64,000 bases of DNA from an uncultured bacterium (GTDB lineage: Bacteria; Bacillota; Clostridia; Oscillospirales; Oscillospiraceae): positions 1 to 64,000 of the forward strand of contig CATKXO010000006.1 in the NCBI GenBank assembly GCA_949840775.1, written 5' to 3'. Position 1 is the first letter of the stretch. Every line of letters starts with the position of its first letter. The notes under the pieces were generated by a model. It made no database searches. It was not told the DNA's origin and worked only from the letters and a program-made list of their open reading frames with translations. Made by a program: the position numbers and the translations under genes. Positions 18,918-63,513 of this stretch are shown here, in pieces.

Positions 18918-19703
18918 TTAACAAATCAAGTATCGCCGCATGTTAAAAAGACTGATGCAGATAATCACTGCCATCAGCAAAATGAACAGCCGTTCTACCG
19001 CCCTGCTGTCCATCCGCCGGTTCAGCCTTCTGCCCAAAACGCCTCCTCCCAGTCCGCCTGCTGCCATCAACACCAGCACTAACCAGCGAAAATCCGGGAC
19101 AGACGCGGTGATCAGGGTGGTCAACAGGCTGCACAGCTGACTGAAAAAGATGATGTAAAGGCTATTGGCGGCGGCTGTTTTGGTATCCATACTGAAAAAG
19201 AAATACAGCACCACCAGATTGATCGGCCCGCCGCCGATCCCCAAAAAGCTGGACATACAGCCCAGTGCCAGGCCGATTGCGGCGCACGCCCCCTTATTTC
19301 GGATCTGGTGGGTAGAAATACGGGATTTGTTCAGCGTGTAGAGCAGCGTTCCCAGTGTAACGACAGCCAGACAGGCGGACTGGACCGCCCCCACCCGCTC
19401 AGGTGTATCCGACAGCTCCCGCGCCAGCGCGAACAGCTGATTGCCCAGCAAGCCGCCCGCCGCCGCTCCCACCGCCAGCGGTGTTCCCACGTCCAGGGAG
19501 ACGCTTTTCTCCCCTGCCAGGAGCGACTTGCCCACCGAGTAACAGCTCATGGTTAATACAGTGCAGCCGGACAAAAAACTGATGGCGGATACCGTCTCCA
19601 GGTGGAACAGGTCCAACACAGGCTTGATGATGACGCCGCCGCCAATGCCGCAGATGGCGCCCACAGCGCTGGCCCCCAGAGCGACGAGAAAAAATATCAG
19701 CAT
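18918..19703 (-). CDS. TauE/SafE-family anion exporter
   Basis: A 261-residue integral membrane protein with eight likely helices. Two half-repeats carry the family glycines: GAICGIGGGVIIKPVLDL at about 16-33 and GCMSSFLGIGGGPINLVVL at about 147-165. Family members export sulfite, sulfoacetate or other oxyanions. It is the last gene of the leftward sulfatase operon, and its ribosome site (GAGGTGAG) overlaps the end of the maturase gene. In this context it probably exports the sulfate or sulfite released by the pathway; that is inference. Confidence 0.88.
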   Translation of the reverse strand: MLIFFLVALGASAVGAICGIGGGVIIKPVLDLFHLETVSAISFLSGCTVLTMSCYSVGKSLLAGEKSVSLDVGTPLAVGAAAGGLLGNQLFALARELSDTPERVGAVQSACLAVVTLGTLLYTLNKSRISTHQIRNKGACAAIGLALGCMSSFLGIGGGPINLVVLYFFFSMDTKTAAANSLYIIFFSQLCSLLTTLITASVPDFRWLVLVLMAAGGLGGGVLGRRLNRRMDSRAVERLFILLMAVIICISLFNMRRYLIC

Positions 19704-19707
19704 GAGC

Positions 19708-20823
19708 TCACCTCGTTCTTAACATGCTTTGCGCCTGCCGCAGGCGGGGGAGGGCGTAGGCAAAAAAACCGGCGTAGGCCCGGCAGTAGTAATTGCGTCC
19801 CAGCCCGTCCTCTTCCACCGCCCGATCCCGACGGCACCCGTTGCGGCACAAGGGATACCACTGACAGGTCTTACACTCCTCCGGGACCCGCCGGGACGCC
19901 TCCACAAAGCCAATCTCCTCCCGGACCCGGTCCAGCTCCTCCCAGGAATCCTGTTGGATATTCCCCAGGCGGTATCCATCCAGGCCGTAGAAGTCACAAG
20001 GGTAGACGCTTCCGTCCGCCTCCACCAGATACTGTAAACCGCAGCACCCCAGCATAGAGCACTGCTCCGGAGCGTGTCCGTTCAGCATCCACACCAGATT
20101 GTCAAAATACCGGATCGACCAGTATCGGCCCTGCTCCAGCTCTCGATACCACAGGTCGAACAAGGTTTTCAAAAAGCGCTCATACTGATCCGGAGACAGG
20201 GAGTAGCCCTGTCCCCCCCGCTCCTCCTCCAGGGGGTCCAGGCAGGGAATATACTGCTGAAACCGGAAGCCCTCCTTGCACAGGGCGGAAAAGACGCTCT
20301 GGATATGCCTGGCCAGATGGCCCGTCACTACCGTGAGGACGTTGTAGTCCACTCCGGCCTCCTCCAGCAGGCGGGCTGCCTTCATCACCCGGTGGTAGGT
20401 GCCCTTTCCCTCCCCGTCCCGGCGGAACCGGTCGTGACACTCCCGGTTCCCGTCCAGAGACAGACCCACCAGGAAGCGGTTTTCTTGAAAAAAGCGGCAC
20501 CAGTCCCTGTCCAGCAGCATCCCGTTTGTCTGAATGGCGTACTGGACCGCCAGGGCTTTTGGGACCGTCTCCTTCACACAGGAGACAAAATCCCGGTAGA
20601 AGTCCAGCCCCGCCAGGGTGGGTTCGCCGCCCTGAAACAGGAACGTAATGGAGCCCTCCGCCGCCCCCGCCGCCTTCTCAATCAGGGTATGGCTCACCGC
20701 TTGGGGCATCAAACCATAATTGGGCACAGTGCGGATACTGGCCTCGTCGGCGTAGAAGCAGTAGGCGCAGCGCAGGTTGCAGGCGCTGGAGGCCGGCTTG
20801 ATCAGGATGCTCAGGGGCGGCAT
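19708..20823 (-). CDS. anaerobic sulfatase-maturating enzyme (radical SAM/SPASM)
   Basis: A 371-residue radical SAM enzyme that oxidises the active-site Cys or Ser of sulfatases to formylglycine without oxygen. Visible: C15-x3-C19-x2-C22 (CNLRCAYC) for the SAM cluster, FQGGEPTLAG, and a C-terminal SPASM region with CGLQYL, YPCDFYGLDGYR and CKTCQWYPLCRNGC for two auxiliary clusters. An adjacent Cys-type sulfatase gene in the same operon is its expected substrate. Start ATG 20823 follows GGAGGAG. Confidence 0.93.
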   Translation of the reverse strand: MPPLSILIKPASSACNLRCAYCFYADEASIRTVPNYGLMPQAVSHTLIEKAAGAAEGSITFLFQGGEPTLAGLDFYRDFVSCVKETVPKALAVQYAIQTNGMLLDRDWCRFFQENRFLVGLSLDGNRECHDRFRRDGEGKGTYHRVMKAARLLEEAGVDYNVLTVVTGHLARHIQSVFSALCKEGFRFQQYIPCLDPLEEERGGQGYSLSPDQYERFLKTLFDLWYRELEQGRYWSIRYFDNLVWMLNGHAPEQCSMLGCCGLQYLVEADGSVYPCDFYGLDGYRLGNIQQDSWEELDRVREEIGFVEASRRVPEECKTCQWYPLCRNGCRRDRAVEEDGLGRNYYCRAYAGFFAYALPRLRQAQSMLRTR

Positions 20824-20844
20824 GGCAGCTCCTCCTTTTTTGAC

Positions 20845-20870
20845 GCGGGCCGCCCATCAGGGCGGCCCGC
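20845..20870. other. GC-rich hairpin between GntR and maturase genes
   Basis: GCGGGCCGCCC / GGGCGGCCCGC with an ATCA loop. There is no T run on the coding strand, so it is more likely an mRNA stability element or an R1-like remnant than a terminator. Confidence 0.55.
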
Positions 20871-20875
20871 ACTGT

Positions 20876-21985
20876 TTATCTTATGGCAGGGCCGACGGAC
20901 CGGCCCACATAGATCTCCGGGGACAGGACACAGGTATAGCCCAGATCGTCGCAGTCCCGGTTCCGAATCATCTGCGTCAGCCTGGAGGCCACCTCCTGCC
21001 CGATCCGGTAGCCCTGGTGAACGGAGCAGGTGACCCCCTCCGCCTCCCAGTCGTCGCTGGAGTAGTCAAAGCACACCAGGGAGCAGTCCTCCGGCACCCG
21101 CTTTCCCTGCTTCTCCAGCACCTGCCGCACCAGACGGTAGATCATGTAGTTGCAGCAGACCACCGCCGTATAGTGGGTCAGCCGCTTTAAAAAGCGGTCG
21201 ATGGAGCGGGCAAAGCTGGGGTCGTGGGCCTCGTCGGAGACGCACCACTTGATGTAGTCGTCCTGATACGCCACTCCGTTTTCCCGGAGGGCGGCGGCCA
21301 TCCCCTGGAACTTTTCGATGCTCTGGTAGTTGTCAGAGACAAACACCCCGGCAATATTCCGGTGGCCCTCCCGGATGAGCAGGCCGATGAGCTCCTGGGC
21401 GCACCGCAGGTCGTTGACCACCACCCGGGGGCACTTCAGGTTTTTATAGTAGTTGTTGTAGAAGATGACGGGAATCCGTTTCTGGTAAATTTTCTGGTAG
21501 CAGTCCAGGTTGGGGTTGAGCAGGCTGGCCTTCACGCCGTCTACGATGAAGCCCTGAAAGCCCTGGTTGATGACGGTCTGGAGGCAGTGCCGCTCGTTGG
21601 CGAACTTGTTGTCCGTCAGAAAGGTGCGCAGGTCCACCCGGTCGGGAGACAGGACGCTGCGGATGCCCTCCATCAGGCTGGAGTTGGCGTTGCTGTCCTG
21701 ACCCTGGAGGATCAGTCCGATTTTCAGCTTTCCGGTGCTTCCGCCCAGCTCCCAGGACAGGGCTTCCTCCTTGTCGATGTAGGTGCCGCTGCCCTTCACC
21801 CGGATGAGCAGCCCCTCCTCGGTCAGCCGCTCCAGCGCCCGGCGCACCGTCTCCCGGCTGACGGACAGCTTCCGGCTCAGGGTGTTTTCGGAGGGAATCT
21901 TTGTGTTGCTGGAAAACTTATTCTCCTCAATATAGGCCCGCACCCAGAGATAGACCATCTCTGACTTCCTGTCCAGCACCTTCAT
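20876..21985 (-). CDS. GntR-type regulator with LacI-like sensor domain (AraR architecture)
   Basis: A 369-residue regulator. Residues about 5-75 are a GntR winged helix (KIPSENTLSRKLSVSRETVRRALERL, split by the turn; GLLIRVKGSGTYI). The rest is a periplasmic-binding-like sensor with DGVKASLLN, GHRNIAGVFVSDN and CFDYSSDDWE, as in AraR. Such proteins bind a sugar-type ligand and release DNA. ATG 21985 is preferred over the GTG at 21994. It lies inside the operon, so it is produced with the pathway it probably controls. Confidence 0.88.
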   Translation of the reverse strand: MKVLDRKSEMVYLWVRAYIEENKFSSNTKIPSENTLSRKLSVSRETVRRALERLTEEGLLIRVKGSGTYIDKEEALSWELGGSTGKLKIGLILQGQDSNANSSLMEGIRSVLSPDRVDLRTFLTDNKFANERHCLQTVINQGFQGFIVDGVKASLLNPNLDCYQKIYQKRIPVIFYNNYYKNLKCPRVVVNDLRCAQELIGLLIREGHRNIAGVFVSDNYQSIEKFQGMAAALRENGVAYQDDYIKWCVSDEAHDPSFARSIDRFLKRLTHYTAVVCCNYMIYRLVRQVLEKQGKRVPEDCSLVCFDYSSDDWEAEGVTCSVHQGYRIGQEVASRLTQMIRNRDCDDLGYTCVLSPEIYVGRSVGPAIR

Positions 21986-22015
21986 GACGCCCACCTCGCC
22001 CAGCCGCGCAGTTTC

Positions 22016-23368
22016 TCAGTCGGTAATCTCGGGCCGTTTCCCCTCCGCCTTTTCGATCCAGTCCAGCAGGCGCAGCCGCAGCGCTTCCTTCACCTGGGCG
22101 TAGGCGGGATCGGCCACCACATTGTTCAGCTGGTGGGGGTCCTTCTCCATGTCGTAGAGGAAGTCGTCGGCGTACACGTCCGCCGCCGCCGCCTCGCCGC
22201 CGTTGACGCCGGGGGCGTAGACAGAGTAGGTATACCGGGCTGTGCGGATGCACCGGCCCACCCGGCTCTCGGAAATCTGCGCGAAAATTTCGTTGGGTCT
22301 ATTATCGTCCTTTTTCTCTACCACGTCAAGGAGGTTTTCCCCGATCATGGCCTCTCCCACATCTACGCCGGCCAGGGACAGGATGGTCTTGGGCAGACTG
22401 GCGGTGCTCACCAGCTCCTCCACGGCAATTCCACCCTTGAAGGGCCCGCCGGCGATGACCAGGGGCACGTGGAGGGCCGCGTCGTGACAGGAGCGCTTAT
22501 AGTCGTCGTAGCCGTTGAGGTGGGCGTCCCGGTTGCGGGTGAGGAAGTGGGAGCCGTGGTCGGAGGCAAAGATGATCACCGTATTCTCATACAGCCCCTT
22601 CTCCTTCAGCTTGGCCACCAGCCTGCCCAGATTCTCATCCAGGCTGGCGCACTGGCCCAGGTAGTCGGGGTACTCCTCCGCCGCATTGCCTCCCAGCGCC
22701 TTCAAATCCTCGGGCAGAATGAAGTTCTTGAACCGCTCCCTGGACCCCTCCGGTCCCTCGTAGTGCTTCCGGTCGTTCTGGTGGTGGGGCTCGATTTGTG
22801 AGACGGTCATAAAGAAGGGCTTTTTCCCGTCGTACTGGTCGAAGAACTCCAGGGCCAGGTCGTTGATGCAGTCGGCCCGGTAGCCCTTGAAGTCGATGCG
22901 CCGGTCATTCTCGTCAAAGACGTAGCCGTCGTAGCCGTGGGAGGTAAACTCCAGCACGTCGGCGGCGCGCCAGAAGCCGGTGTATCCCCCCCGCAGCTCC
23001 CTAGGGATGGCGGTGACGGTGTGGTCAATCGTGGGGGGCTTCTCCAGCTCCCCGTCGCTGGCCAGATGCCACTTGCCGATATAGGCGGTCTCATAGCCCG
23101 CCTCCTCAATGTAGCTGCCCAGGGTTTTCACCCCGGAGGGCAGCATGATGTTGTTGCGGAAGCAGCCCGTCTCGGTGGGCCATTTACCCGTCTGGAAGAG
23201 GGCGCGGCAGGGGCCGCACACCGGCTGGGGGGAGAAAGCGTTGTCAAACTTGACTCCCTCCCGGGCCAGCTGGTCCAGGTTGGGCGTGATGTCCAGGGGC
23301 TGGCCGAAGCAGCCGCAGGTGTCCCAGCGCTGCTGGTCGGTAAAGTAGAAAATAATATTATTTGGCAT
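22016..23368 (-). CDS. Cys-type sulfatase, cytoplasmic
   Basis: A 450-residue alkaline-phosphatase-fold sulfatase. The metal-site DQQ lies at 11-13 and the formylglycine motif is C51-G-P-C-R55 followed by ALFQTG. GKWHL and SDHGSH are also present. It starts MPNNIIFYFTDQQ with no signal peptide, so it acts inside the cell. It is converted to formylglycine form by the maturase encoded two genes downstream. Its ribosome site overlaps the tctA stop. The substrate must enter by the linked transporter; its identity is unknown. Confidence 0.93.
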   Translation of the reverse strand: MPNNIIFYFTDQQRWDTCGCFGQPLDITPNLDQLAREGVKFDNAFSPQPVCGPCRALFQTGKWPTETGCFRNNIMLPSGVKTLGSYIEEAGYETAYIGKWHLASDGELEKPPTIDHTVTAIPRELRGGYTGFWRAADVLEFTSHGYDGYVFDENDRRIDFKGYRADCINDLALEFFDQYDGKKPFFMTVSQIEPHHQNDRKHYEGPEGSRERFKNFILPEDLKALGGNAAEEYPDYLGQCASLDENLGRLVAKLKEKGLYENTVIIFASDHGSHFLTRNRDAHLNGYDDYKRSCHDAALHVPLVIAGGPFKGGIAVEELVSTASLPKTILSLAGVDVGEAMIGENLLDVVEKKDDNRPNEIFAQISESRVGRCIRTARYTYSVYAPGVNGGEAAAADVYADDFLYDMEKDPHQLNNVVADPAYAQVKEALRLRLLDWIEKAEGKRPEITD

Positions 23369-23371
23369 TTG

Positions 23372-24874
23372 TCAGTCCTCCTTCTGCTGGCTGGCTTTTC
23401 GCTCCTTCATCTTTCCACGGACAATGGCGCCCACCGCTCCCACAATGAGAACCAGGAAGATGATGCAGTATACGCTGCTGAAAAAGATGCTGGGACTGCC
23501 GTTGGAGATGAGCAGGGCCCGGCGGAAGTTGGTCTCGGTCATGCTGCCCAGCACCAGGCCCAGCAGAATGGGTACCGGGGGCAGCTCCAGCTTGCGCAGA
23601 ACCCAGGACAGAATCCCGAAAATCAGGGCCACACCCACATCAAAGTAGTTTCCATTGACGGAATAGGCCCCCGCAAAGCAGAAGATGACGATGATGGGGG
23701 TAAGAATCTCCTGGGGGATGGACACCACCTTGGCAAAAATAGTGGTGAGGAATTTCCCCTGAAGGAACATGAACACATTTACTAGGATCAGGCCCAGCAT
23801 GATAGCGTACATAATGTCTCCCTGGGTGGTGAACAGGCTGAGACCGGGATTCAGGCCATTGATCATCAGGGCGGAGAGCATGATGGCCACTGTGCCGTCG
23901 CCGGGGATGCCCAGGGTGAGCAGAGGGATCAAAGTTGCGCCGGTGACGGCGTTGTTGGCCGATTCGGCGGCGGCGATGCCCTCCACCGAACCGTGGCCGA
24001 ACTCCTCCGGGTGTTTGGACATGTTCTTGGCAGTGTTGTAGCTGAACCAGGAGGCCTCCGAGGCCCCGGTGCCGGGAATAATGCCCACCATTACCCCGAT
24101 GAGGGAGGAGATCAGCACCGGCCGGGTCATGCGCTTATACTCCGCCTTGGTGATGACCCCGTCGTCCTTGATTTGGGTAGTATCCAGGTTGAGCCGGTCC
24201 AGCCGCCGCTCCGCCTTGGCCATAATCTCCACCAGGGCGAACAAGCCGATGAGGCAGACGGCCAGGTCCAGCCCCAGATAGAGCCGGGGGATGCCGAAGG
24301 TAAAGCGGTCGTAGCTGGTCATGGGGTCGGAGCCTACACAGGAGATGAGCAGGCCCAGGCAGGCGGAAATCAGGCCCTTGATCATGCTCTTGCCCGACAC
24401 GCCGGCGATGATGGTCAGGCCGAAGACGCAGACCATAAAATATTCTGCGGTGCCCAGCTGGGCGGCAATCCTGGCCACCTGGGGCCCCAGGAAGAGGAGC
24501 ATCAGGGCGGAGAATACCCCGCCGAAGGTGGAGGCATACAGGGCGATTTTCAGCGCCGCCTTGGTCCGGCCCTGCTCCGACAGGGGGTGCCCGTCCAGCA
24601 TGGTGGCCGCCGCGTGGGGCGTGCCGGGGGTGTTGATGAGGATGGCGGACACGCTGCCGCCGTAGCCGCCGGCGCAGTAGATGCCCAGCAGGAACATCAT
24701 GCCGGGGATGGCGGTCATGGAGTAGGTGACGGGCAGGAAGAGGATGACACACAAAATGACGCTCAGGCCAGGGATAGCCGCAAAGACCGAGCCGATGAAC
24801 ACACCAATATTGATCCACAGGATATTCTGTAGCGTGAACAGCAGGCCGGTGGCCGGAATGATATGTTGTAACAT
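23372..24874 (-). CDS. tripartite tricarboxylate transporter, large membrane subunit TctA
   Basis: A 500-residue, roughly 12-helix permease of the TTT family. Typical motifs are GVFIGSVFAAIPGLS near the start, GGYGGSVSAILINTPGTP, and PGTGASEASWFSYNTAK. It uses an ion gradient to import organic anions delivered by TctC. ATG 24874 follows AAGGAGGGGG; the upstream open frame is not conserved. It lies between tctB and the sulfatase gene. Confidence 0.93.
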   Translation of the reverse strand: MLQHIIPATGLLFTLQNILWINIGVFIGSVFAAIPGLSVILCVILFLPVTYSMTAIPGMMFLLGIYCAGGYGGSVSAILINTPGTPHAAATMLDGHPLSEQGRTKAALKIALYASTFGGVFSALMLLFLGPQVARIAAQLGTAEYFMVCVFGLTIIAGVSGKSMIKGLISACLGLLISCVGSDPMTSYDRFTFGIPRLYLGLDLAVCLIGLFALVEIMAKAERRLDRLNLDTTQIKDDGVITKAEYKRMTRPVLISSLIGVMVGIIPGTGASEASWFSYNTAKNMSKHPEEFGHGSVEGIAAAESANNAVTGATLIPLLTLGIPGDGTVAIMLSALMINGLNPGLSLFTTQGDIMYAIMLGLILVNVFMFLQGKFLTTIFAKVVSIPQEILTPIIVIFCFAGAYSVNGNYFDVGVALIFGILSWVLRKLELPPVPILLGLVLGSMTETNFRRALLISNGSPSIFFSSVYCIIFLVLIVGAVGAIVRGKMKERKASQQKED

Positions 24875-24888
24875 AAGCCGCCCCCTCC

Positions 24889-25404
24889 TTAAAAGTCCAC
24901 GCCCAGGGCGAAGCGGAAGGCGGCCCAAATGGCCACCGCTATCACCAGGGTAATGACATAATAGGACTTCTTCCGGCACCGGAAATAGAGCAGGAAGCCA
25001 AGACAGCAGAAAATTGCTCCCACTACAAACAGTCCGGTGAGCTTGCTGAGCAGATAGGTAACCACCAGGATGCCCAGAATAATCAGGGCCTTGATCTCTA
25101 CCTGAATGTTGATGACCTTCCAGTTCAGGGGCTGTTTGGTCGCCAGCTTATACAGCTCCTTGCCGATGAGCATGGCGCAGCACAGCAGCAGCACCACCGT
25201 CAGCATGGTGGGGAAGGCCCGGCCGTTCACCACATCTTTTTCGGAAATTGCCACCTGATCCGGCATGACAAGCAAAACGCCGAGGCCCAGAAGGAAAAAT
25301 AGGATGCCGGTGACCAGGTCTATGGGAATGCGAATCTCTTTCTCATGCAGCTTGCGGCCCCAGGCGTCCATACGGCCGTTAAACTGCTCCACCCATTTAC
25401 TCAT
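24889..25404 (-). CDS. tripartite tricarboxylate transporter, small subunit TctB
   Basis: A 171-residue protein with four hydrophobic segments (about 28-46, 60-80, 105-145, 150-168) and a short cytoplasmic N-terminus. The sequence is poorly conserved, as usual for TctB; identity rests on size, topology and position between tctC and tctA. It is preceded by AAAGGAGG. Its stop is 15 bases before tctA. Confidence 0.85.
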   Translation of the reverse strand: MSKWVEQFNGRMDAWGRKLHEKEIRIPIDLVTGILFFLLGLGVLLVMPDQVAISEKDVVNGRAFPTMLTVVLLLCCAMLIGKELYKLATKQPLNWKVINIQVEIKALIILGILVVTYLLSKLTGLFVVGAIFCCLGFLLYFRCRKKSYYVITLVIAVAIWAAFRFALGVDF

Positions 25405-25436
25405 GGGGGACCTCCTTTCCAGATTTCAAAATGAAA

Positions 25437-25475
25437 CAGGGGATGGGCGGGGTCTTATCCCGATCCCATCCCCTG
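25437..25475 (-). terminator. hairpin between tctC and tctB (attenuator candidate)
   Basis: CAGGGGATGGG / CCCATCCCCTG, followed on the transcribed strand by TTTCATTTT. It probably lets most transcripts stop after the receptor gene, giving more TctC than TctBA. Confidence 0.65.
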
Positions 25476-25497
25476 CATGTTATACGCAGTGCTCAGG

Positions 25498-26463
25498 TCA
25501 GCCGGCAACGATATCCTTGTACTCGTTGACGATGCTCTTCACGTTGTCAATGTGAGCTTCCACGTCTTCCACAGACATGGTGTCCACCTCCAGCAGCATA
25601 GTGTCATGCAGCCAGTCGGCCACCTCCTGGTCGGCCAGAATCTTGCCGTAGAGTTCCTTCAGCTCCTTCACCTTGGCCTCGTCGGTGCCGGCCCGGGCCA
25701 TGACGAAACAGCGGTTGCGGAAGTAGGGGTAGCCATGCTGGCCCACACCCTCCACGCCCTCAAAGGGGCCGTTGGCGATGTCGTTCTCGTCAAAGGCGCA
25801 CACCACGGTCACGCCCTTCTGCTGGTAGGTCTCCAGAATCTGGGACTGGTGGGAGACGGCGAACTGAGTCTCGCCCCGGGCCACGGCCTGGGCGGCCTCA
25901 GCAGCGGACTGGTAAGGAGTGAGCTTCAGTTTGTCGCCCGCGCCCATGGCGCCGAAGAGGGAGGCGGCCAGGAAGGCCTCGGAGCCGGTGGCGCCGTTGA
26001 CGGCCACGCTGATCTCATTGCCCTGGCCCACATAGGACTCCAGGTCAGCGATGCTGTTGATGTTCAGCTCGGCGTCGGCGGAGAGGACAAAGATGGAGGA
26101 ATACAGATTCTCCACAAAGACAAAGTCCTCATAGCCGAACTGCATCTTGTCCGGGTCCAGGATGGAGGTGATGGACAGCAGGCCCTCGCCCACAAACACC
26201 AGCTCGGTATCGTTGGCCTTGGTATCGGCTACCCAGGTATTCACGGTAGCGGCGTCGCCCTTGATTGCCTCGGCCACCAGGGTGATGGTGTCGGAATAGC
26301 TGGTGGACTTGGTGGCGGCCTGCTGGCTCACCATGGCGGCTACGCCGGAGGGGGCCCAGGGACAGGTGACCTTCCAGGTGGCGTTTTTCTTGCCGCCGCA
26401 GGAGGCGAGCAGCCCTATGCACATGGCTCCAACAAGGGCAAGGCTGAGAATCTTCTTTTTCAT
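25498..26463 (-). CDS. TctC-type solute-binding lipoprotein
   Basis: A 321-residue extracytoplasmic receptor. The lipoprotein signal MKKKILSLALVGAMCIGLLA has Cys22 after LLAS. The mature part has the TTT pattern CPWAPSGVAAMV and AVNGATGSEAFLAASLF. AAGGAG selects ATG 26463 over 26469. It is the first gene of the sulfatase operon and should define its substrate, which the sequence does not reveal. Confidence 0.88.
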   Translation of the reverse strand: MKKKILSLALVGAMCIGLLASCGGKKNATWKVTCPWAPSGVAAMVSQQAATKSTSYSDTITLVAEAIKGDAATVNTWVADTKANDTELVFVGEGLLSITSILDPDKMQFGYEDFVFVENLYSSIFVLSADAELNINSIADLESYVGQGNEISVAVNGATGSEAFLAASLFGAMGAGDKLKLTPYQSAAEAAQAVARGETQFAVSHQSQILETYQQKGVTVVCAFDENDIANGPFEGVEGVGQHGYPYFRNRCFVMARAGTDEAKVKELKELYGKILADQEVADWLHDTMLLEVDTMSVEDVEAHIDNVKSIVNEYKDIVAG

Positions 26464-26562: not shown

Positions 26563-26736
26563 CATCTTTCCTTCAAATATGTATAAAGTTGTATGCTCTT
26601 TGTTCGAATTACAAAAACCTGTCTGGAAACCTCGCGTTTTTCATGTGTTTTAAACAAATGATTGGGCAGGAAGTGTGGGATGCTTATCCGTAGAACGAAC
26701 TGTGCCAACCGGATGTGAAAACAGTAGCAGTATGCT

Positions 26737-26836: not shown

Positions 26837-28333
26837 TTACCTCTCTTCACAGTCAAAAACCAGATCATACTTTTCCACGTCGATCACTGCGGAGCCGCCC
26901 GCCTCGAAGGTGATGGCGTCGGCGGACTGCCGGGTGTAGATCACTGCACTGGCCGCCTGTTCGCCGTCATTGACGAAGACCTCCACGCTGAACCGGTCCA
27001 GAATAATCCTCAGCTTAATCTCCCCACCCCGGGGCCGCACCAGGAAGGAGCGGGTGTGGACGATGTCATGGGGCAGGCCGCTGCGGATGCGGTCCAGCTT
27101 GAGGGTGCCCTGGTCGGGGCGGTAACGGATGATGGTCTCGTGCTCCCCGTCCTTGGCCACCCGGATACGGAACCAGCGGTAGAGGTCGGGCCCGGTGGGA
27201 CGGACGGTAACGGTCATGTCCAGCACCCGGCCCCGGACGCCGGGCAGGTTGATCTCCCCGCAGACGGGGATATTTTGATGGACCACCCGAGCTCCCCTGT
27301 AGTGCTCCAGCTCCCGGACCGGGTTTTGAATCAGCCGCCCGTTTTTCACCGTCAGCTCCCGGGGCAGGGTCATCTGGCCAAACCACCGGCAGTTGCAGGG
27401 TTTGGCCTTGGCGGTGTCCCAGTTCTGCATCCAGGCGATCATAATCCGCCGCCCGTCGGGGGATTCCAGCGTCTGGGGGGCGTAGAAGTCCAGCCCGTAG
27501 TCGATGGCCTGGGCTCTCTGCCGGGTGAAGCCCCTGTCCGGGCCGTACTCCCCGATGAGGCAGAGGGTGCCGTTGCCGGCGTGGAACTCCAGGCCCACCG
27601 GGGACATCTCCTGGGGGCTGGTGATGAGCACCTGCCTGCCGTCCAGGGGGAAGAAGTCGGGACACTCCCACATCTTGCCGTACTGATTGCAGCACCGGTC
27701 CAGGGTGCGGACAAATTCCCATTTCAGGCCGTCGGTGCTCCGGTACATCAGGATTGCCCCGCTGCCGTCGGCGGTGCGGTTGCCCACCACGGCGTAAAAG
27801 GTTCCGTCCGGGTCCCGCCACACCTTGGGGTCCCGGAAGTCGATGGTACTGCCTCCCTGGGGCAGGTCCTTGCCGTCCAGAATGGGGTTATCCCCCCATT
27901 TTTCGTAGTTCACCCCGTCCCCGACGGCCACGCACTGGGTCTGGATGTCCTGGAGATAGCCGTCGGCGTTGTGGCCCCGCCGCACGCCGGTGTACAGGAG
28001 AAGCTGCCGCCCGTCGGGCAGCTCCACCGCCCCGCCGGAGAAGCAGCCCGCGCTGTCGTAGTCCTGATCCGGAGCCAGGGCGGCGGGCAGCCGCTCCCAG
28101 TGGAGGAAGTCCCGGGTTTTCAGGTGCCCCCAGTGCATGGGGCCCCACTCGTTGGAGTAGGGGTGGTACTGGTAGAACAGGTGGCACTCCCCCCGGTAGA
28201 AGGAGAAGCCGTTGGGGTCGTTCATCCAGCCGATGGTGGGGGTGGCGTGGAAGGCGGGGCGCTCGCTGTCCGGGATGTGGGGGCCGTACTGGGCCTCGAA
28301 CTCCCGGGCTTTTTGCAATGTTTCACTGGTCAT
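26837..28333 (-). CDS. glycoside hydrolase family 32 (fructosidase/sucrase)
   Basis: A 498-residue enzyme without signal peptide, hydrolysing terminal beta-fructosides (sucrose, fructo-oligosaccharides). Family motifs: WMNDPNG at 36-42 with nucleophile Asp39, FRDPK with the transition-state Asp, and ECPDFF with the acid/base Glu. The C-terminal beta-sandwich contains VFVNDGEQAAS. The long upstream open frame is repeat; ATG 28333 follows GGAGGTG. It is the last gene of an ABC importer operon controlled by the LacI gene at 32269. Confidence 0.93.
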   Translation of the reverse strand: MTSETLQKAREFEAQYGPHIPDSERPAFHATPTIGWMNDPNGFSFYRGECHLFYQYHPYSNEWGPMHWGHLKTRDFLHWERLPAALAPDQDYDSAGCFSGGAVELPDGRQLLLYTGVRRGHNADGYLQDIQTQCVAVGDGVNYEKWGDNPILDGKDLPQGGSTIDFRDPKVWRDPDGTFYAVVGNRTADGSGAILMYRSTDGLKWEFVRTLDRCCNQYGKMWECPDFFPLDGRQVLITSPQEMSPVGLEFHAGNGTLCLIGEYGPDRGFTRQRAQAIDYGLDFYAPQTLESPDGRRIMIAWMQNWDTAKAKPCNCRWFGQMTLPRELTVKNGRLIQNPVRELEHYRGARVVHQNIPVCGEINLPGVRGRVLDMTVTVRPTGPDLYRWFRIRVAKDGEHETIIRYRPDQGTLKLDRIRSGLPHDIVHTRSFLVRPRGGEIKLRIILDRFSVEVFVNDGEQAASAVIYTRQSADAITFEAGGSAVIDVEKYDLVFDCEER

Positions 28334-28355
28334 GGGGGCACCTCCGAAATTGTGT

Positions 28356-28437
28356 TGTAGGGGCCGCCGCCCTCGGCGGCCCGCATATTGCGCACGCATA
28401 TTTTATAGACGGGCCGCCCAGGGGGGCGGCCCCTACA
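28356..28437. repeat. R1 repeat, complete copy
   Basis: TGTAGGGG at one end and CCCCTACA at the other. One inner hairpin is of the CCCTCGGCGG type and the other of the CCCAGGGGGG type. It lies in the 111-base gap between the solute receptor and GH32 genes. Confidence 0.92.
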
Positions 28438-28444
28438 TTTTTGG

Positions 28445-30121
28445 TTACTCCGCCGCGGAGTAGCGGTCGTAGGCGTCCTGGTAGACCTGAATCAGGTCGT
28501 CCATGCCGCACTTCTTGGACAGGTAGGTCTTATACTCCTCCCACTCCTGGTCGGTGGGTCCGCCGTCCCGGAGCCAGAGGCCCTCCCGCTCCTTCACGGC
28601 CGTCTCGAAATCGGTCTTGTGCCAGTCGATGGTCTCCATCTCCATGCCGGTGAAGACGCAGTCCACGGGGTAGAAGGTGGTGTCCTTCACATAGGGCATC
28701 CAGAACTGATCCAGGTCGGTGAGCCGCTCGATGGCCCGGTCCTCCATGTAGAACACGTCACTGTAGTACTCGGCCAGAATCAGCTTGGGGCCGTAGACCT
28801 CGTAGAGGTTGCGCACCTCGCCGGCGCTGCGGTTGTACTGGGAACGGGCCTCGTCCTCGGTGATGGCCAGCCACATGCCCTTGTCGTCCTGGCCGGTGAA
28901 GAACACGCCGATGGGGCCGTATTGCAGCTGTATGACGGTCTCGCCGTCGTACCACTGGTCAAAGAATTTCAGCAGGTTGATGGGGCTCTTGCACTTGTTG
29001 GTGATGCACAGGTCGCCGGACTTGATGGGGGAGCCGGGGCGGATGGTGACGCCGCAGACGCCCTCATACTCCGTCCCCTTGGGCCCGGTGAGGGGCGGCA
29101 GGAAGACGTAGTCCTTGGCGTAGTCCCCCATCAGCTCCTCGATGTACCACCACACGGACACCCCCACATAGCCCTGCTGGCACTTGGCGATGAGCTGGCT
29201 GTCGCTCTGGGAGAACATCTCCACGTCCATCAAGCCCTCCGCGTACCAGTCATGGAAGTAGGTCAGGCAGTCCCGGTAGGCGTCGCTGGCGCAGACAAAT
29301 TCCACCTTGCCGTCGCTTCTCAGATGGATGTCGTTGATGACATCGTTGGGCCAGTTGGTGAAGCCGAAGCCGGAGTAGAAGATATTCTGACCCCAGCACC
29401 ACTCGTCAAAGCCGGTGGTCATAGGAATGGTGGAGCCGGGGGCGTTGCCGTAATATTTGGCGGACATGTCGTTGTCCTGGAAGGCCTTGAGCACGTCGTG
29501 GAGCTCGTCCAGAGAGGTGGGCACCTCCAGCCCCAGGTCGTCCAGCCAGGCCTTGTTAATCATGCTGTACTGGGGGACGGAGAAGATGGAGAACGCCTCG
29601 TCCATAGGGGCGCCGATGCCGGCGGTGGTCATCTGCTCCCCCGAGGGCAGGCCGTAGATCTTGCCGTCCTCCTGGGTGATGGCCGCCCGGATCTCCGGGT
29701 GCTCCTCCAGGATGGCGCACAGGTTGGGCATGATGTCCGGGGTGAGGTAGGGGGTCATGTCCAAAAAGGTGCCGTCGTCCCCGTACCGGGCCAGGTCGTA
29801 GTTGGAGAAGCCCACCCCCATAAAGGCGTCGGGGTACTGGCCGCCGGTGATGCGGATGTTCACCTGCTCGGCCAGGGAGTCGGACATGGTCTCCCAGTTG
29901 ATTTTGACGCCGGCGCTGGCCTGGAGGGCGTCCAGCACCTCGTGACCGTCATAGCCTCTGGACAGGGCGGACATGCCGCCCATGATATCGAACTCGGTCT
30001 GTTCCGTGTTGGGGTTGACCGTACCGTCGTTCACGTTGACCACCAGTCCCCCGCCGCAGCCGGACAGGAGGGACAGGGACAGGGCCGCAGACAGCGCGGC
30101 GGCAAACAGCTTCTTTTTCAT
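28445..30121 (-). CDS. extracellular solute-binding lipoprotein (LplA-like, sugar ABC importer)
   Basis: A 558-residue receptor, large like LplA/YtcQ proteins that serve oligosaccharide importers. The signal is MKKKLFAAALSAALSLSLLS with lipobox Cys22, then VNVNDGTVNPNT. ATG 30121 follows GAGGAGGAAG. It works with the two permeases upstream in the operon. The ATP-binding subunit is absent here, as usual for this class, which shares an MsmK/MsmX-type ATPase encoded elsewhere. Linkage to GH32 suggests a fructose-containing oligosaccharide. Confidence 0.88.
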   Translation of the reverse strand: MKKKLFAAALSAALSLSLLSGCGGGLVVNVNDGTVNPNTEQTEFDIMGGMSALSRGYDGHEVLDALQASAGVKINWETMSDSLAEQVNIRITGGQYPDAFMGVGFSNYDLARYGDDGTFLDMTPYLTPDIMPNLCAILEEHPEIRAAITQEDGKIYGLPSGEQMTTAGIGAPMDEAFSIFSVPQYSMINKAWLDDLGLEVPTSLDELHDVLKAFQDNDMSAKYYGNAPGSTIPMTTGFDEWCWGQNIFYSGFGFTNWPNDVINDIHLRSDGKVEFVCASDAYRDCLTYFHDWYAEGLMDVEMFSQSDSQLIAKCQQGYVGVSVWWYIEELMGDYAKDYVFLPPLTGPKGTEYEGVCGVTIRPGSPIKSGDLCITNKCKSPINLLKFFDQWYDGETVIQLQYGPIGVFFTGQDDKGMWLAITEDEARSQYNRSAGEVRNLYEVYGPKLILAEYYSDVFYMEDRAIERLTDLDQFWMPYVKDTTFYPVDCVFTGMEMETIDWHKTDFETAVKEREGLWLRDGGPTDQEWEEYKTYLSKKCGMDDLIQVYQDAYDRYSAAE

Positions 30122-30137
30122 CGAACTTCCTCCTCTC

Positions 30138-31037
30138 TCAGCCCTTGACGGCCCCGGCCATAAAGCCCTTCTCGAAGTGCTTCTGGACGAAGGGGTAGAT
30201 GACCAGCATGGGCACCGCCGCCACAATCATGGAGCAGAACTTCAGCAGCTCGGTGAGCTTGTTCAGCTCGGCGTAGCCGCCGGAGATGGTGGCCGCCTGA
30301 GAGGCGGAGGCGGAGCTCTTAATCAGGATGTTCCGCATGACCAGGGGCAGGGGGGTGCCCTTGCCGCCCAGATAGATCAGGGCGGTGAACCAATCGTTCC
30401 AGTAGGCCACCATGGAGAACACCACCATCACCGCCATGATGGGCATGGACAGGGGAATCACCACGGAGAAGAAGGTGCGCAGCTTGGAGCAGCCGTCAAT
30501 CTCACTGGCCTCGATGAGGTCGTGGGGGATGGAGTTCTGGAAATAGTTACGGACGATAATCATATTGCCCACCGCCACCCCGCCGGGGAGGAACAGGGAC
30601 CACATGCTGCCCGTCAGGCCGGTGGATTTCACCACCAGGTAGGTGGGGACCAGTCCGCCGCCGAAGTACATGGTAATCAGGAAGAAGATACTCAGCGCCT
30701 TGCGCCCCGGCAGGTCCTTCTGGGCCAGGGGATAGGCGGTGATGTACAGCATGACCACCGAGAAGATGGTGCCGATAACGGTATATTTCACCGAGTTGAG
30801 GAAGCCGGAGACGATGTTCTTCTCCGCGAACACCGCCTTGTAGCCGTCCAGGGTGAAGCCGCTGGGCAGCAGGAAGGTTTTTCCCGCATATACCTCATAG
30901 GGGTCGGAGAAGGAGGCCACCAGCACATAGTACAGCGGGTAGGCCACGATCACAAGGACCACCGCGCAGATAGCCACCAGAATGATGTCGCTGGTCCGCT
31001 CGGACATGCCGGTGGACAGAGATTTTTCCTTTGTCAT
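30138..31037 (-). CDS. carbohydrate ABC permease (LplC/MalG type)
   Basis: A 299-residue inner-membrane subunit with six helices. The ATPase-contact loop reads EASEIDGCSKLRTFFSVVIP (about residues 183-202). The long loop after the first helix, SFSDPYEVYAGKTFLLPSGF, is typical of the LplC group. It is encoded 16 bases before the receptor gene. Confidence 0.92.
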   Translation of the reverse strand: MTKEKSLSTGMSERTSDIILVAICAVVLVIVAYPLYYVLVASFSDPYEVYAGKTFLLPSGFTLDGYKAVFAEKNIVSGFLNSVKYTVIGTIFSVVMLYITAYPLAQKDLPGRKALSIFFLITMYFGGGLVPTYLVVKSTGLTGSMWSLFLPGGVAVGNMIIVRNYFQNSIPHDLIEASEIDGCSKLRTFFSVVIPLSMPIMAVMVVFSMVAYWNDWFTALIYLGGKGTPLPLVMRNILIKSSASASQAATISGGYAELNKLTELLKFCSMIVAAVPMLVIYPFVQKHFEKGFMAGAVKG

Positions 31038-31051
31038 AATTTCCGCCCCCT

Positions 31052-31999
31052 TTACACAAATTCCACGTCCGAGGCTCTGGACGCGATCTTGTTGACGACG
31101 AGCAGCAGAATAATGTTCACCGCCGTGTTGAACAGGCCCACCGCCGTGGAGTAGCTGTACTTGGCGCTCTCAATGCCCTGCTGGTACACATAGACGGCGA
31201 TCACATCGCTGGTGGCCTTGTTCAGGTCGGTCTGGAGCAGCCAGACCTTCTCAAACCCCACGTTCATCAGGCCACCGGCGGCCATAATCAGGTTCAGGAT
31301 GGCCATGGGCAGCAGCTCGGGGATGTCGATGCTGCGGATTCGCTGAAACACCGACGCGCCGTCGATCTTGGCCGCCTCATAGAGGCCGGGGTCCACGTTG
31401 GCCAGGGTGGCCAGGTAGATGATACAGCCCCAGCCGGCGTCCTGCCAGATGCCTGAGGCGATGTAGATGGTGCGGAAGGCGGAGGACTGGGTCAAAAAGT
31501 CGATTTGGGTGCCCAGAATCAGGTTGAGCAGTCCCCCCGAGGGGCTGAGGAAGATGCGGATCATACCGCAGATGACCATAACGGAGATGAAGTGGGGGGC
31601 GTAGAGCACCGTCTGCACCACCCGTTTGAATTTGTGAAACCGGAGCTGGTTGATAATCAGGGACAGGATGATGGGGATGGGGAAGCTCCACAGCAGGCTG
31701 TACAGGCTGATGAGCACCGTGTTCTTAATCATCCGCCAGCAGGTGGGGGAGCTGAAAAAGCGCTGGAACCAGTACCAGCCCACCCACTCGCTGCCCAGAT
31801 AGCCCCGGCTGGCCTTGAAGTCCCGGAAGGCGATCTGGATGCCGTACATGGGGATGTACTTGTAAATAACTGTGAGCACCACGGGGATCAGCAGCAGCGC
31901 GTACAGCTGCCAGTTGTCCATGATCCTCTGACCCAGGCTCTTGCCCGGCCGGGCAAGGGCGGCGGAACCCGCCGCCGAGATGCGTACGCCAGTTTTCAT
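31052..31999 (-). CDS. carbohydrate ABC permease (LplB/MalF type)
   Basis: A 315-residue partner permease with six helices, YIPMYGIQIAFRDFKASRGY near residue 50 and the ATPase-contact loop YEAAKIDGASVFQRIRSIDI near residue 220. It is the first gene of the operon. A GTG at 32008 is possible, but AGGGAG is better placed for ATG 31999. Its promoter carries a probable LacI operator just after the start of transcription. Confidence 0.92.
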   Translation of the reverse strand: MKTGVRISAAGSAALARPGKSLGQRIMDNWQLYALLLIPVVLTVIYKYIPMYGIQIAFRDFKASRGYLGSEWVGWYWFQRFFSSPTCWRMIKNTVLISLYSLLWSFPIPIILSLIINQLRFHKFKRVVQTVLYAPHFISVMVICGMIRIFLSPSGGLLNLILGTQIDFLTQSSAFRTIYIASGIWQDAGWGCIIYLATLANVDPGLYEAAKIDGASVFQRIRSIDIPELLPMAILNLIMAAGGLMNVGFEKVWLLQTDLNKATSDVIAVYVYQQGIESAKYSYSTAVGLFNTAVNIILLLVVNKIASRASDVEFV

Positions 32000-32041
32000 A
32001 TGCGTCACTCCCTATTTCTTTCCTTGTTGCAGTTTTCGATA

Positions 32042-59064: not shown

Positions 59065-60549
59065 TCAGATAGCCTTCTTCTTGAAGAGCAGGGCCTTGAT
59101 CTTGCCGCCGAAGAGGCTGATCACGATCAGGAAGATGAAGAACCAGGCGATGACGGAGCCAAAGAACACGGAGGGGTCGCCGCCGGATTTCAGCAGGGCG
59201 GTGCGGAAGTTCTTCTCGGCCATGGGGCCCAGAATCAGGCCCAGGATGGCGGGACTGGTGGGCACCTTCACCTTGGCCAGGAAGTAGCCCACCACGCCGG
59301 CGATGAGCATGACCCACACGTCAAACAGGCTGTTTTTCATGGCGTAGGAGCCGATGACGCACAGCACGAAGATGGCGGGGGTGAGGATCACCTTGGGCAC
59401 GCTGAGCACCTTGGTAAACAGGCGGATGCCGGCAAACCCGAACAGGCACATCAGGGTATTGGCGATGAACATGCCCAGGAAGATGGTGTACACCAGTACC
59501 TTGTTGGTGCTGAACAGCATGGGGCCGGGGGTGAGGCCCTGGATGGTCAGGGCGCCGATCATGATGGCGGTGACTGCGTCGCCGGGGACGCCCAGGGTGA
59601 GCATGGGGATCATGGCCCCGCCGGTGACGCCGTTGTTGCCGCCCTCGGGGCCGGAGATGGCCTCCACCGAGCCCTTGCCGAAGAGCTCAGGCTCCTTGGC
59701 GATGGACCGGGCCACGTTGTAGCCCACAAAGGAACCGATGTCCGCGCCGGCGCCGGGGATGATGCCGATAAAGGTGCCGATCAGGCCGGTAAGAGGGGCG
59801 ATGCGGATGATCTTCTTCAGGTCCTCCTTCCTGGGGAGGATGTTGGTCAGCTTTGCCTGGACCTCCTCCTCCTCGAAGATGGACTCGATGTTCTCAAATG
59901 CCTGACTCATGGCGAACAGGCCGATCATAATGGGAATATAGTTGATGCCGCCCATAAAGTTGTAGTTGCCCTCGGGGGAGAAGCGGATATAGCTGGTCAC
60001 GCTGTCAATGCCCACGCAGGCCACCAGAACGCCGATGGAGCCGCAGATCAGGCCCTTCTCCACGTCCTCGCCGGAGATGTTGCCGATGATGCACAGGCCG
60101 AACACGGCCAGCAGGAAGAACTCGGCGGAGCTGAACTTCAGGGCCAGCTTGGCCAGCAGGGGGCTGATGAGCCACAGACAGGCCACGGAGACAAGGCCGC
60201 CGATGTAGCTGGACAGGGTGGCGGTGCCTAGAGCCCGGCCGGCCTCGCCCTTCTGGGAGAGGGCGTAGCCGTCGATGGCGGTGGCGGCGGAGGCGGGAGT
60301 GCCGGGGGTGTGTAGCAGTACGGCGGAGATGGAGCCGCCATAGATGGCGCCGCAGTAGATGCCCAGCAGCATCAGAATGCCCTGGGCGGCGTCCATGCCG
60401 AAGGTCATGGGCAGCAGCAGGGCCACGCCCATGGTGGCGGTCAGGCCGGGCAGGGCTCCGATGCAGATGCCGGACAGCACGCCGATGGCCATATACAGAA
60501 AGACCATTGGGGTCAGACTGGTCGTAAAAATCTCAGCTAATAAACTCAT
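59065..60549 (-). CDS. TTT transporter large subunit TctA (second system)
   Basis: A 494-residue permease with the same motif order as the TctA at 23372: GALPGLTATMGVALLLP near residue 33, GAIYGGSISAVLLHTPGTP and PGAGADIGSFVGYNVARS. It has about 12 helices. ATG 60549 follows AAGGAGGG. Its position between sugar-acid genes suggests an aldonate or 2-keto-3-deoxy acid as cargo. Confidence 0.93.
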   Translation of the reverse strand: MSLLAEIFTTSLTPMVFLYMAIGVLSGICIGALPGLTATMGVALLLPMTFGMDAAQGILMLLGIYCGAIYGGSISAVLLHTPGTPASAATAIDGYALSQKGEAGRALGTATLSSYIGGLVSVACLWLISPLLAKLALKFSSAEFFLLAVFGLCIIGNISGEDVEKGLICGSIGVLVACVGIDSVTSYIRFSPEGNYNFMGGINYIPIMIGLFAMSQAFENIESIFEEEEVQAKLTNILPRKEDLKKIIRIAPLTGLIGTFIGIIPGAGADIGSFVGYNVARSIAKEPELFGKGSVEAISGPEGGNNGVTGGAMIPMLTLGVPGDAVTAIMIGALTIQGLTPGPMLFSTNKVLVYTIFLGMFIANTLMCLFGFAGIRLFTKVLSVPKVILTPAIFVLCVIGSYAMKNSLFDVWVMLIAGVVGYFLAKVKVPTSPAILGLILGPMAEKNFRTALLKSGGDPSVFFGSVIAWFFIFLIVISLFGGKIKALLFKKKAI

Positions 60550-60564
60550 AAACGTCCCTCCTTC

Positions 60565-61032
60565 TTAAATGGTGAAAATGCCGAAGGTATGCACCGGCAC
60601 GTTCAGGACAAAGCGGAAGGCGCAGTACACCACCATGGTAATGGCGGCGGAGATGATCGCGGTGATGATGGGATTCTTTTTGGCGAACCACTGGATGAAG
60701 ATGAGCTCCAGCACAAAGGTGGCGATGATAAAGCCCAGGAAGGGCAGTACCAGCAGATAGACGAACAGGATGCCCATGGTGAGGTACACCCGCCGGGTGC
60801 CGGTGGTCCACAGCTCGATTTTGGTGTTCTTCTCCGGGGACATTTTCAGGGTGCGGTAAATCAGGATGGCGGTACAGGCCAGCAGGACGATGGAAATGAC
60901 GATGGGCCACAGGCCGGGCCCGGGAACGCCGGTGCCGTAGTCGGCCGCCTTGGGGTATCCGGAGGCGACGGCAATGATCCCCACGCCCAGTACCGCGCAG
61001 ACAGCGGCCAATACCAGGTTGCCTTTTTTCAT
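60565..61032 (-). CDS. TTT transporter small subunit TctB (second system)
   Basis: A 155-residue protein with four hydrophobic stretches (about 5-25, 40-58, 80-118, 124-142). It was identified by size, topology and position immediately before tctA (16 bases). Confidence 0.85.
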   Translation of the reverse strand: MKKGNLVLAAVCAVLGVGIIAVASGYPKAADYGTGVPGPGLWPIVISIVLLACTAILIYRTLKMSPEKNTKIELWTTGTRRVYLTMGILFVYLLVLPFLGFIIATFVLELIFIQWFAKKNPIITAIISAAITMVVYCAFRFVLNVPVHTFGIFTI

Positions 61033-61055
61033 ATGCTTTCTCCCTCCAAATCATC

Positions 61056-61097
61056 GAATAAAAGCCGGGGAGCGGAAGCCTGTTCCGCTCCCCGGCT
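61056..61097 (-). terminator. terminator/attenuator after second tctC
   Basis: A perfect 15-base stem (AGCCGGGGAGCGGAA / TTCCGCTCCCCGGCT), followed on the transcribed strand by TTTATTCG. Placed as in the first tct operon. Confidence 0.85.
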
Positions 61098-61128
61098 GCT
61101 GTGCAAATGGGCGCTCTGGATATGGGAT

Positions 61129-62154
61129 TTAGCCGATTTTCAGACCCAGGTCCTCCACCAGGCCGGTGTACAGCTCCAGCTGCTGGCCAATCATGGTGTT
61201 GAAGGAGGGACCGTCCATGATGTCAATGACGTTGTTGGTGTTGGCCATGAACTCCTTGAAGGCGTCGGACTCGGCGGCCTCAGAGAAGATGCGGTACAGC
61301 TCGTCCACAACCTCGTCGGGGGTGTTGGCGGGCACGCCCAGGCCGCGCCAGGTACCCAGAACGGCGTCATAGCCGCACTCCTTGCAGGTGGGCACGTCGG
61401 GAATGGCCTCCAGGCGGTCGTTGGCCATAACGGCCAGCACCTTCAGCTCGCCGGACTGGACAAAGCTGTTGACCTCGGCGTAGGACACGGCCACGGCGTC
61501 GATGTGGCCGCCCAGCAGGTCGGTAATGGCGCCGGCGGCGCCGTCGTAGCCCACGTGGTTGAACTCGGTGCCGGCGGTCTTGGCCAGGCCGGCGGCGGCC
61601 AGGTGCCAGATGGCGCCGATGCCGGAGTTGCCCACCTGGACCTTGTTGGTCTTGGAGTACTCGATGAAGTCCTCCAGGGTGTCGAAGCGGTCGTCGTCGG
61701 CCTTCACGGTGATGGCGGAGGCGGCGGAGTTGACCATCATGATGGGCTTGAACTGGGTGTAGGTCAGACCGGCGTTGTTGCCCATGGCCTCCAGGGTGGC
61801 CAGCTCAACGGTAATCATGGTGACGATGGAGCCGTCGTTCTTGGCCTGGGCGCCATAGAGCATACCGGTGGCGCCGCCGGCGCCGGAGCGGTTCTCGACG
61901 GTGATGTTCTTGAAGCTGCCCTTGGCCGCGTCGGCCAGGCCGCGCATGACGGCGTCGGTGCCGCCGCCCGCATCGTAGGGCACCACGCAGGTGACGCTCA
62001 GGTTGGACAGGTCCACGCTGCCGGCCGGAGCGCTGCCGCTGGCATTATTGGAACCGGCCGCAGGAGTGCTCTTGGCGGGGGCGTTGCCGCCGCCGCAAGC
62101 GGTGAGGGACAGGGCCATGGCCAGCGCCAAGGCAAGTGCGGTGATTTTCTTCAT
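61129..62154 (-). CDS. TctC-type solute-binding lipoprotein (second system)
   Basis: A 341-residue receptor. The signal is MKKITALALALAMALSLTAC with Cys20, followed by a low-complexity linker to about residue 47. Then come VTCVVPYDAGGGTDAVMRGLA and VGNSGIGAIWHLAAAGLA, the classical TctC pattern. It has its own promoter and is probably highly expressed relative to TctBA because of the hairpin that follows. Confidence 0.93.
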   Translation of the reverse strand: MKKITALALALAMALSLTACGGGNAPAKSTPAAGSNNASGSAPAGSVDLSNLSVTCVVPYDAGGGTDAVMRGLADAAKGSFKNITVENRSGAGGATGMLYGAQAKNDGSIVTMITVELATLEAMGNNAGLTYTQFKPIMMVNSAASAITVKADDDRFDTLEDFIEYSKTNKVQVGNSGIGAIWHLAAAGLAKTAGTEFNHVGYDGAAGAITDLLGGHIDAVAVSYAEVNSFVQSGELKVLAVMANDRLEAIPDVPTCKECGYDAVLGTWRGLGVPANTPDEVVDELYRIFSEAAESDAFKEFMANTNNVIDIMDGPSFNTMIGQQLELYTGLVEDLGLKIG

Positions 62155-62281
62155 ACATTCTACCTCTTTTCAAAAAAATTGGGAATCTATTTGAACATCC
62201 GTCGGGATGATCAAACCGCGGCGCCCTCCCCCTGGGGAGAGGCGGCAGGGGAGCTTCCCTGCCAGTGTAAATTCATCCGTT

Positions 62282-62310
62282 ATGATACTACAATTTGATG
62301 AAACAGTCAA
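62282..62310 (-). promoter_or_regulatory. promoter of second tctC
   Basis: Leftward TTGACT (62310-62305), 17-base spacer, TATCAT (62287-62282). The leader includes a GC-rich inverted stretch near 62220-62262. Confidence 0.75.
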
Positions 62311-62358
62311 CTGCTGAGAGAAATTTTTGGTTAATTTCACCTAAGCTCACAGGCAGCG

Positions 62359-63387: not shown

Positions 63388-63416
63388 AATATTTTCCTCC
63401 TAATCTAATTGACTGT

Positions 63417-63490: not shown

Positions 63491-63513
63491 TTGCAAAAGG
63501 TGCGGCAGACGGA

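Follow-up and report, generated by a model that had tools for sequence, protein, structure and literature searches.

The window, a 64,000-nucleotide stretch from an uncultured Oscillospiraceae bacterium (positions 1 to 64,000 of contig CATKXO010000006.1), holds a seven-gene operon that combines a tripartite tricarboxylate transporter (TTT) with a sulfatase lacking a signal peptide. This self-contained operon probably scavenges a small sulfated sugar through TTT import, cytoplasmic desulfation and TauE export, a reading held here with moderate confidence and with the substrate inferred from genomic context. The gene identities, the missing signal peptide, the conservation, the linkage of importer and sulfatase, the specificity of an upstream repeat and the link to GH112 were computed directly.

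In the proposed mechanism, the intact sulfate ester would be imported by a TTT transporter whose TctC receptor is divergent, and a co-encoded anaerobic sulfatase-maturing enzyme (anSME) would convert Cys51 of the sulfatase to formylglycine. The sulfatase would then release sulfate inside the cell, and the desulfated sugar would pass into ordinary sugar metabolism. Sulfate would exit via TauE, or in some relatives perhaps via a CHR pair, while a GntR/LacI-type regulator would sense the sugar and act at a tandem repeat before tctC.

Gene content and conservation of the operon

The seven co-directional genes occupy positions 26463-18918 of the minus strand with intergenic gaps of 3-93 bp, as determined from the layout of open reading frames (ORFs) and from profile searches. 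The earlier note on this DNA had named the same set (TctC-B-A, signal-less Cys-type sulfatase, GntR, anSME and TauE), and the profile searches confirmed it. The first gene encodes a TctC-type solute receptor of 321 aa with a lipoprotein-like N-terminus and an atypical ligand loop (25498..26463). It is followed by the small membrane subunit TctB (24889..25404; Pfam TctB, 39.4 bits) and the large membrane subunit TctA (23372..24874; Pfam TctA, 499.9 bits), both of which score over the Pfam cut-offs. For TctA, the ATG of MLQHIIPA was taken as the start instead of the upstream GTG (24979) at which the listed ORF opens; many TctA homologues are called at about 500 aa. Downstream are the cytoplasmic Cys-type type I sulfatase (22016..23368; Pfam Sulfatase, 157 bits), a GntR-family regulator with a LacI-type sugar-sensor domain in an AraR-like architecture (20876..21994; Pfam GntR 62.5 and Peripla_BP_3 55.6 bits), the radical SAM/SPASM maturase anSME (19708..20823) and a TauE/SafE (TSUP) protein proposed to export sulfate (18918..19703; Pfam TauE 109.4 bits, cut-off 32.6). 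Two anSME equivalog models were passed, NF010321 at 448.3 bits (cut-off 441) and TIGR03942 at 372 bits (cut-off 349.45). Uptake before cytoplasmic desulfation, with the maturase co-encoded, had also been suggested earlier, and the analysis supports it.

Directly upstream of the tct operon are a GH32 (fructan/sucrose-type) gene, a permease gene and binding-protein genes (window 26837-32008, minus strand), which probably form a separate operon. GH32 likewise lies near the sulfatase in two other loci (L007 and L042).

A scan of 84,980 species genomes yielded 216 confirmed relatives of the sulfatase, and the best 80 of these 216 loci (69-95% identical) were analysed. The carriers among them include Oscillospiraceae, Lachnospiraceae, Faecalibacterium, Anaerotruncus, Erysipelotrichaceae, Anaerobiospirillum and spirochaetes. 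The earlier note had made its reading depend on gene order being conserved in other genomes, and TctC-TctB-TctA-sulfatase was found in identical order and strand in 54/80 loci, which favours that reading, the carriers of this full set belonging by taxonomy to Firmicutes and Pseudomonadota (Anaerobiospirillum). Near the sulfatase, an anSME match was found in 52 of the 80 loci, a GntR match in 54 (one of them, in L076, a distant paralog) and a TauE match in 20; all seven genes were present in 18. Many of the 80 loci end within a few kb. Where a locus extends 6 kb or more to both sides of the sulfatase (48 loci), TctCBA was found in 32, anSME in 33, GntR in 33, TauE in 12 and CHR in 4. TctA alone was matched in 60 loci, including one paralog (L065) and two remnants (L082 and L084). 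The cassette has probably spread horizontally, judging from the 78% identity between distant phyla.

The importer and its linkage to the sulfatase

The operon's TctC scores 25 bits against a Pfam gathering score of 27, i.e., below the cut-off, and is recognised as a TctC-type receptor by its fold and the gene order. In place of the GGxTD-type loop it carries PSGVAA. A canonical TctC elsewhere in the window (61129-62154; 150 bits) carries the GGxTD-type loop. This second TTT system (59065-63999, minus strand) adjoins a 2-dehydro-3-deoxygluconokinase-like PfkB kinase and, truncated by the window end, the gene of a KDPG-type aldolase, an arrangement that suggests an importer for a sugar acid. Compared with known TTT systems (TctABC, BugD/Bug27, TphC), the operon thus differs in a receptor below the Pfam cut-off, an altered ligand loop and a tight link to a sulfatase.

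Co-occurrence was counted across 250 genomes belonging to the window's family. The sulfatase was present in 7, the operon-type TctC in 7 and both in 6, so that the receptor occurs in 6/7 sulfatase genomes versus 1/243 others (p = 1.5e-10; p-values throughout carry no correction for shared ancestry). Since the presence of TctC tracks the presence of the sulfatase, the importer is tied to the sulfatase. In the single sulfatase genome without the receptor (G245), the sulfatase adjoins GH112, and in the single receptor genome that lacks a sulfatase (G218), tctC survives only as part of a tctC-gntR deletion remnant. At L092:2980-4452, the first part of tctC continues directly into the last part of gntR with everything between absent, apparently through loss of most of the cassette. 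Genomes with the sulfatase and no intact adjacent TTT system of this type numbered 22; the operon-type TctC was not found anywhere (E 1e-20) in 21 of these, and the remaining genome has a TctC of 37% identity.

Two spirochaete metagenome-assembled genomes (L082:8047-8796 and L084:8223-8990) have the start of tctC fused in frame to the end of tctA. In both, tctB is absent and the sulfatase and anSME are retained; the L084 genome also has a separate, distant TctC (L091, 37%).

The sulfatase and its substrate

The sulfatase carries the nucleophile motif C51-G-P-C-R55, i.e., the C/S-x-P-x-R signature, together with the S1 fold of type I sulfatases (AlphaFold2 model, pLDDT 84.8). Residues C51, P53, R55, K291 and R292 are invariant in 32/32 aligned sequences. 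In a profile search against the PDB, the 6-O-sulfatases of subfamily S1_11 ranked high: BT4656 (5g2v) first, BuS1_11 (7lha), an L-galactose-6-sulfatase, second, and BT3177 (7p24) fifth. Passages in the respective papers assign BT4656 to 6S-N-acetylglucosamine (GlcNAc)/N-sulfoglucosamine (PMC10154612) and BT3177 to 6S-GlcNAc (PMC10154620). In S1_11, the dyad that recognises O4 flanks the catalytic Lys (D361 and R363 in BT4656; PMC6994673). By sequence alignment, D289, K291 and R292 of the window sulfatase line up with D361, K362 and R363 of BT4656, but with a one-residue insertion between Asp and Lys. The window sulfatase resembles BT4656, BT3177 and BuS1_11 in that an Arg directly follows the catalytic Lys (K291-R292, as K362-R363) and an Asp lies nearby. 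It differs from them in its low identity (26-29%), in the Asp-Lys insertion, in lacking a signal peptide and in the O3-binding His (H447 in BT4656), for which the same alignment gave no counterpart: the aligned residue is Arg372 in the segment QISESRVGR, where no His is conserved. Membership of S1_11, suggested by profile rank, was therefore not accepted, given that the Arg beside the catalytic Lys is retained but the triad His is not. The fold was also considered as a substrate guide. Within a few Z units, the model of the sulfatase fits numerous S1 structures that differ in specificity, and since structure comparison singles out no S1 subfamily, no substrate was called from the fold.

The TctC-B-A-sulfatase operon itself encodes no sugar enzyme, so genomic context was used for the substrate. 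In 8/80 loci (L031, L035, L039, L040, L045, L050, L061 and L067), the sulfatase lies in or beside GH112 operons with a sugar-type ABC importer, and one further genome (L088) has it among genes of a GH112-type operon. GH112 is the 1,3-beta-galactosyl-N-acetylhexosamine (lacto-N-biose/galacto-N-biose) phosphorylase; the L061 copy scores 949 bits with TIGR02336. In L067 and L088, the sulfatase sits among ABC, GH112 and APH-family kinase genes, the kinase resembling NahK, and L088 also has genes resembling galT, galE and a nucleotidyltransferase (named from their N-termini only). In L068, the two genes after the sulfatase together encode a split GH2 beta-galactosidase.

Across the 250 family genomes, GH112 was present in 6/7 sulfatase genomes versus 17/243 others (p = 2e-6). 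Among sulfatase-bearing genomes reached through the loci (50 of the 80 submitted, 49 covered), it was present in 33 and absent from 16. GH88, a control host-glycan family, was present in 3/7 sulfatase genomes versus 23/243 others (p = 0.026), the three including a weak match of 62.9 bits in the window genome itself. As a marker of a glycosaminoglycan route, GH88 thus shows a far weaker association than GH112, and this route was kept as a secondary possibility. The window genome has its GH112 on another contig (L087, contig 10), separate from the TTT-sulfatase operon. That GH112 operon region (L087 4421-17826) also holds GH88, DUF2264, KduI and a gluconate 5-dehydrogenase/KduD-like gene, and so combines galactosyl-N-acetylhexosamine phosphorolysis with unsaturated-uronate catabolism.

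The recurrence of the sulfatase beside GH112, a NahK-like kinase and beta-galactosidase favours a sulfated sugar over aromatic or uronate sulfates, and the context fits a sulfated sugar of mucin or keratan type. This context points to a mucin- or glycosaminoglycan-derived sulfo-monosaccharide as the most likely substrate class; GlcNAc-6-sulfate is the leading single candidate, followed by N-acetylgalactosamine-6-sulfate or galactose sulfates.

Other neighbourhoods were also observed. Sulfatases about 75% identical to that of the window occur at L075:8956-15155 and L076:8914-19339 near a sugar-type ABC importer, a class II aldolase and a distant sulfoquinovose-isomerase-like protein (244 bits, cut-off 700), with a PPi-PFK-like kinase also present in L075. 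These neighbourhoods possibly represent a different route for the desulfated sugar.

Three other explanations were weighed. The same architecture could serve a carboxylate or aromatic compound that carries sulfate (for example a sulfated uronate, sulfotyrosine or an aryl sulfate), with the TTT receptor recognising the carboxylate, as solved TctC-type receptors do (5oei, oxoadipate; 6hke, malate; 8hka, terephthalate). The absence of a sugar enzyme from the TTT operon agrees with this, as do the best NCBIfam matches of the sulfatase, which are arylsulfatase (139.3 bits, cut-off 481) and choline-sulfatase (121.5 bits, cut-off 433.45) models, both far below their cut-offs. However, sulfatases 69-86% identical to that of the window adjoin GH112, a NahK-like kinase, GH2 beta-galactosidase or sugar-type ABC importers, and the GGxTD-type loop of the canonical TctC in the window has given way to PSGVAA in the operon. 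We therefore regard a carboxylate or aromatic substrate as unlikely; sulfated uronates and aromatic acids were the first guesses of the earlier note, and the repeated linkage to sugar genes speaks against them. Less probable again are sulfated disaccharides (sulfo-lacto-N-biose, sulfo-galacto-N-biose or sulfo-N-acetyllactosamine) imported by the TTT system, whose desulfation would clear the way for GH112 or beta-galactosidase. The GH112 neighbourhoods (8/80 loci and L088) and the GH2 pair in L068 would suit such substrates, but GH112 is missing from 12 of the 34 TTT-bearing genomes reached, and solved TTT receptors have small molecules as their named ligands. A promiscuous phosphonate/sulfate monoester hydrolase, in an operon serving another anion, is a very improbable reading, as anSME near the sulfatase (52/80 loci) and TSUP or CHR exporters (28/80) fit sulfate chemistry and phosphonate monoester hydrolases rank below S1_11 sulfatases in both profile and structure searches.

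Regulation, export and relation to known systems

A tandem direct-repeat element lies upstream of tctC (26585..26623, minus strand; GACAGGTTT - 19 bp - CATACAACTTT), with units ACAnnTTT and ACAACTTT at a period of 30 bp. Promoter-like hexamers follow it (TTGAAT, 17 bp, TAGATT), read by eye and absent from the list of the promoter scanner. The element was the sole match in the window, with none in 100 shuffles, and it remained the single site across the full 2.6 Mb genome even when up to 3 mismatches were allowed. A looser pattern identified 44 sites across 1.29 Mb of loci, and 42 of these (the window's copy included) lie before tctC. The other two precede the L059 sulfatase, where there are no TTT genes, and the tctC/tctA remnant of L082. 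The repeat precedes tctC in 41/54 relatives with TctCBA; the remaining 13 were unmatched by the pattern, some of them because the contig stops short of tctC. In L021 and L070, tctB is the called gene closest to the repeat, and tblastn places tctC between the two. The motif was derived from the same loci in which it was counted, so that independent evidence comes from the absence of matches elsewhere and from the single genomic site. With no second site in the 2.6 Mb genome, the regulon search revealed no catabolic gene. An inverted-repeat pattern gave 0 matches. The element is operator-like, and the operon's own regulator is the presumed binding protein.

The exporter step is the weakest part of the mechanism, TauE being found in only 20/80 loci, and both the ligand and the outward direction of transport are proposed. 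CHR chromate-type transporters occur within about 7 kb of the sulfatase in 7/80 loci (L027, L038, L041, L044, L053, L058 and L073); 2/7 are from Faecalibacterium and 2/7 carry TauE as well. At the mean CHR-pair density of 16 genomes, 0.5 loci would be expected (P(>=6) = 1.7e-5), and at the highest single-genome density 1.5 loci (P = 0.004), with pairs tallied by hand and 6/16 background genomes chosen for having CHR at the locus. The excess over background is not overwhelming, and a role of CHR as substitute sulfate exporter is suggestive only. The sulfur-oxyanion-type exporter of the earlier note is thus frequent but not universal.

The sulfatase clusters of Bifidobacterium breve UCC2003 reportedly co-encode a maturase, an importer and a regulator, the regulator being of ROK type and the importer of another type. 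The window operon likewise pairs a cytoplasmic sulfatase with a co-encoded maturase and importer, as B. breve-type utilisation is said to do, and differs in its TTT importer and in a GntR/LacI-type regulator in place of the ROK type. Lacto-N-biose/galacto-N-biose phosphorylase operons comprise an ABC importer, GH112, NahK, GalT and GalE. Orthologous sulfatases stand among such genes in L067 and L088, whereas the window sulfatase has its own TTT operon and GH112 is on another contig. The use of GlcNAc-6-sulfate by B. breve with intracellular sulfatases is stated in a passage of PMC7326374 (citing Egan et al. 2016 on the UCC2003 clusters), and the likeness lies in an intracellular sulfatase acting on a cross-fed, mucin-derived sulfated monosaccharide. 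Passages elsewhere describe the release of GlcNAc 6-sulfate from mucin glycans by the B. bifidum sulfoglycosidase BbhII (PMC6109692) and export signals on Bacteroides carbohydrate sulfatases (PMC10154612). Given the intracellular B. breve sulfatases for GlcNAc-6-sulfate, the strategy of import before desulfation, put forward earlier as a candidate new pathway, is already known, at least from that passage of PMC7326374; the TTT importer and the gene set look new, and a TTT importer with an atypical receptor would be new. No description of a TTT system paired with a sulfatase was found in the open-licence literature, in which TTT ligands were not searched as such, and no report of a cytoplasmic sulfatase in Faecalibacterium was found there; five sulfatase-related terms were absent from PMC4252021.

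More tentatively, and at somewhat short of even confidence, a TTT branch for sulfated (amino)sugars together with a cytoplasmic sulfatase, maturase and sulfate exporter may constitute a cassette, probably horizontally spread, by which sulfated monosaccharides freed by mucin degraders are scavenged by gut bacteria that need no mucin degradation of their own, Faecalibacterium prausnitzii and Anaerotruncus colihominis among them. Being small and carried by named strains (L038, L044), the cassette is directly testable; A. colihominis DSM 17241 and F. prausnitzii ATCC 27768 are named carriers. Sulfation is considered protective for mucin, most studies of gut sulfate release concern Bacteroides, and F. 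prausnitzii is a butyrate producer. If the proposal holds, a widespread intracellular-desulfation cassette would be a second route of gut sulfate release, would provide a cross-feeding niche for anaerobes such as F. prausnitzii and would extend TTT transporters to a new ligand class.

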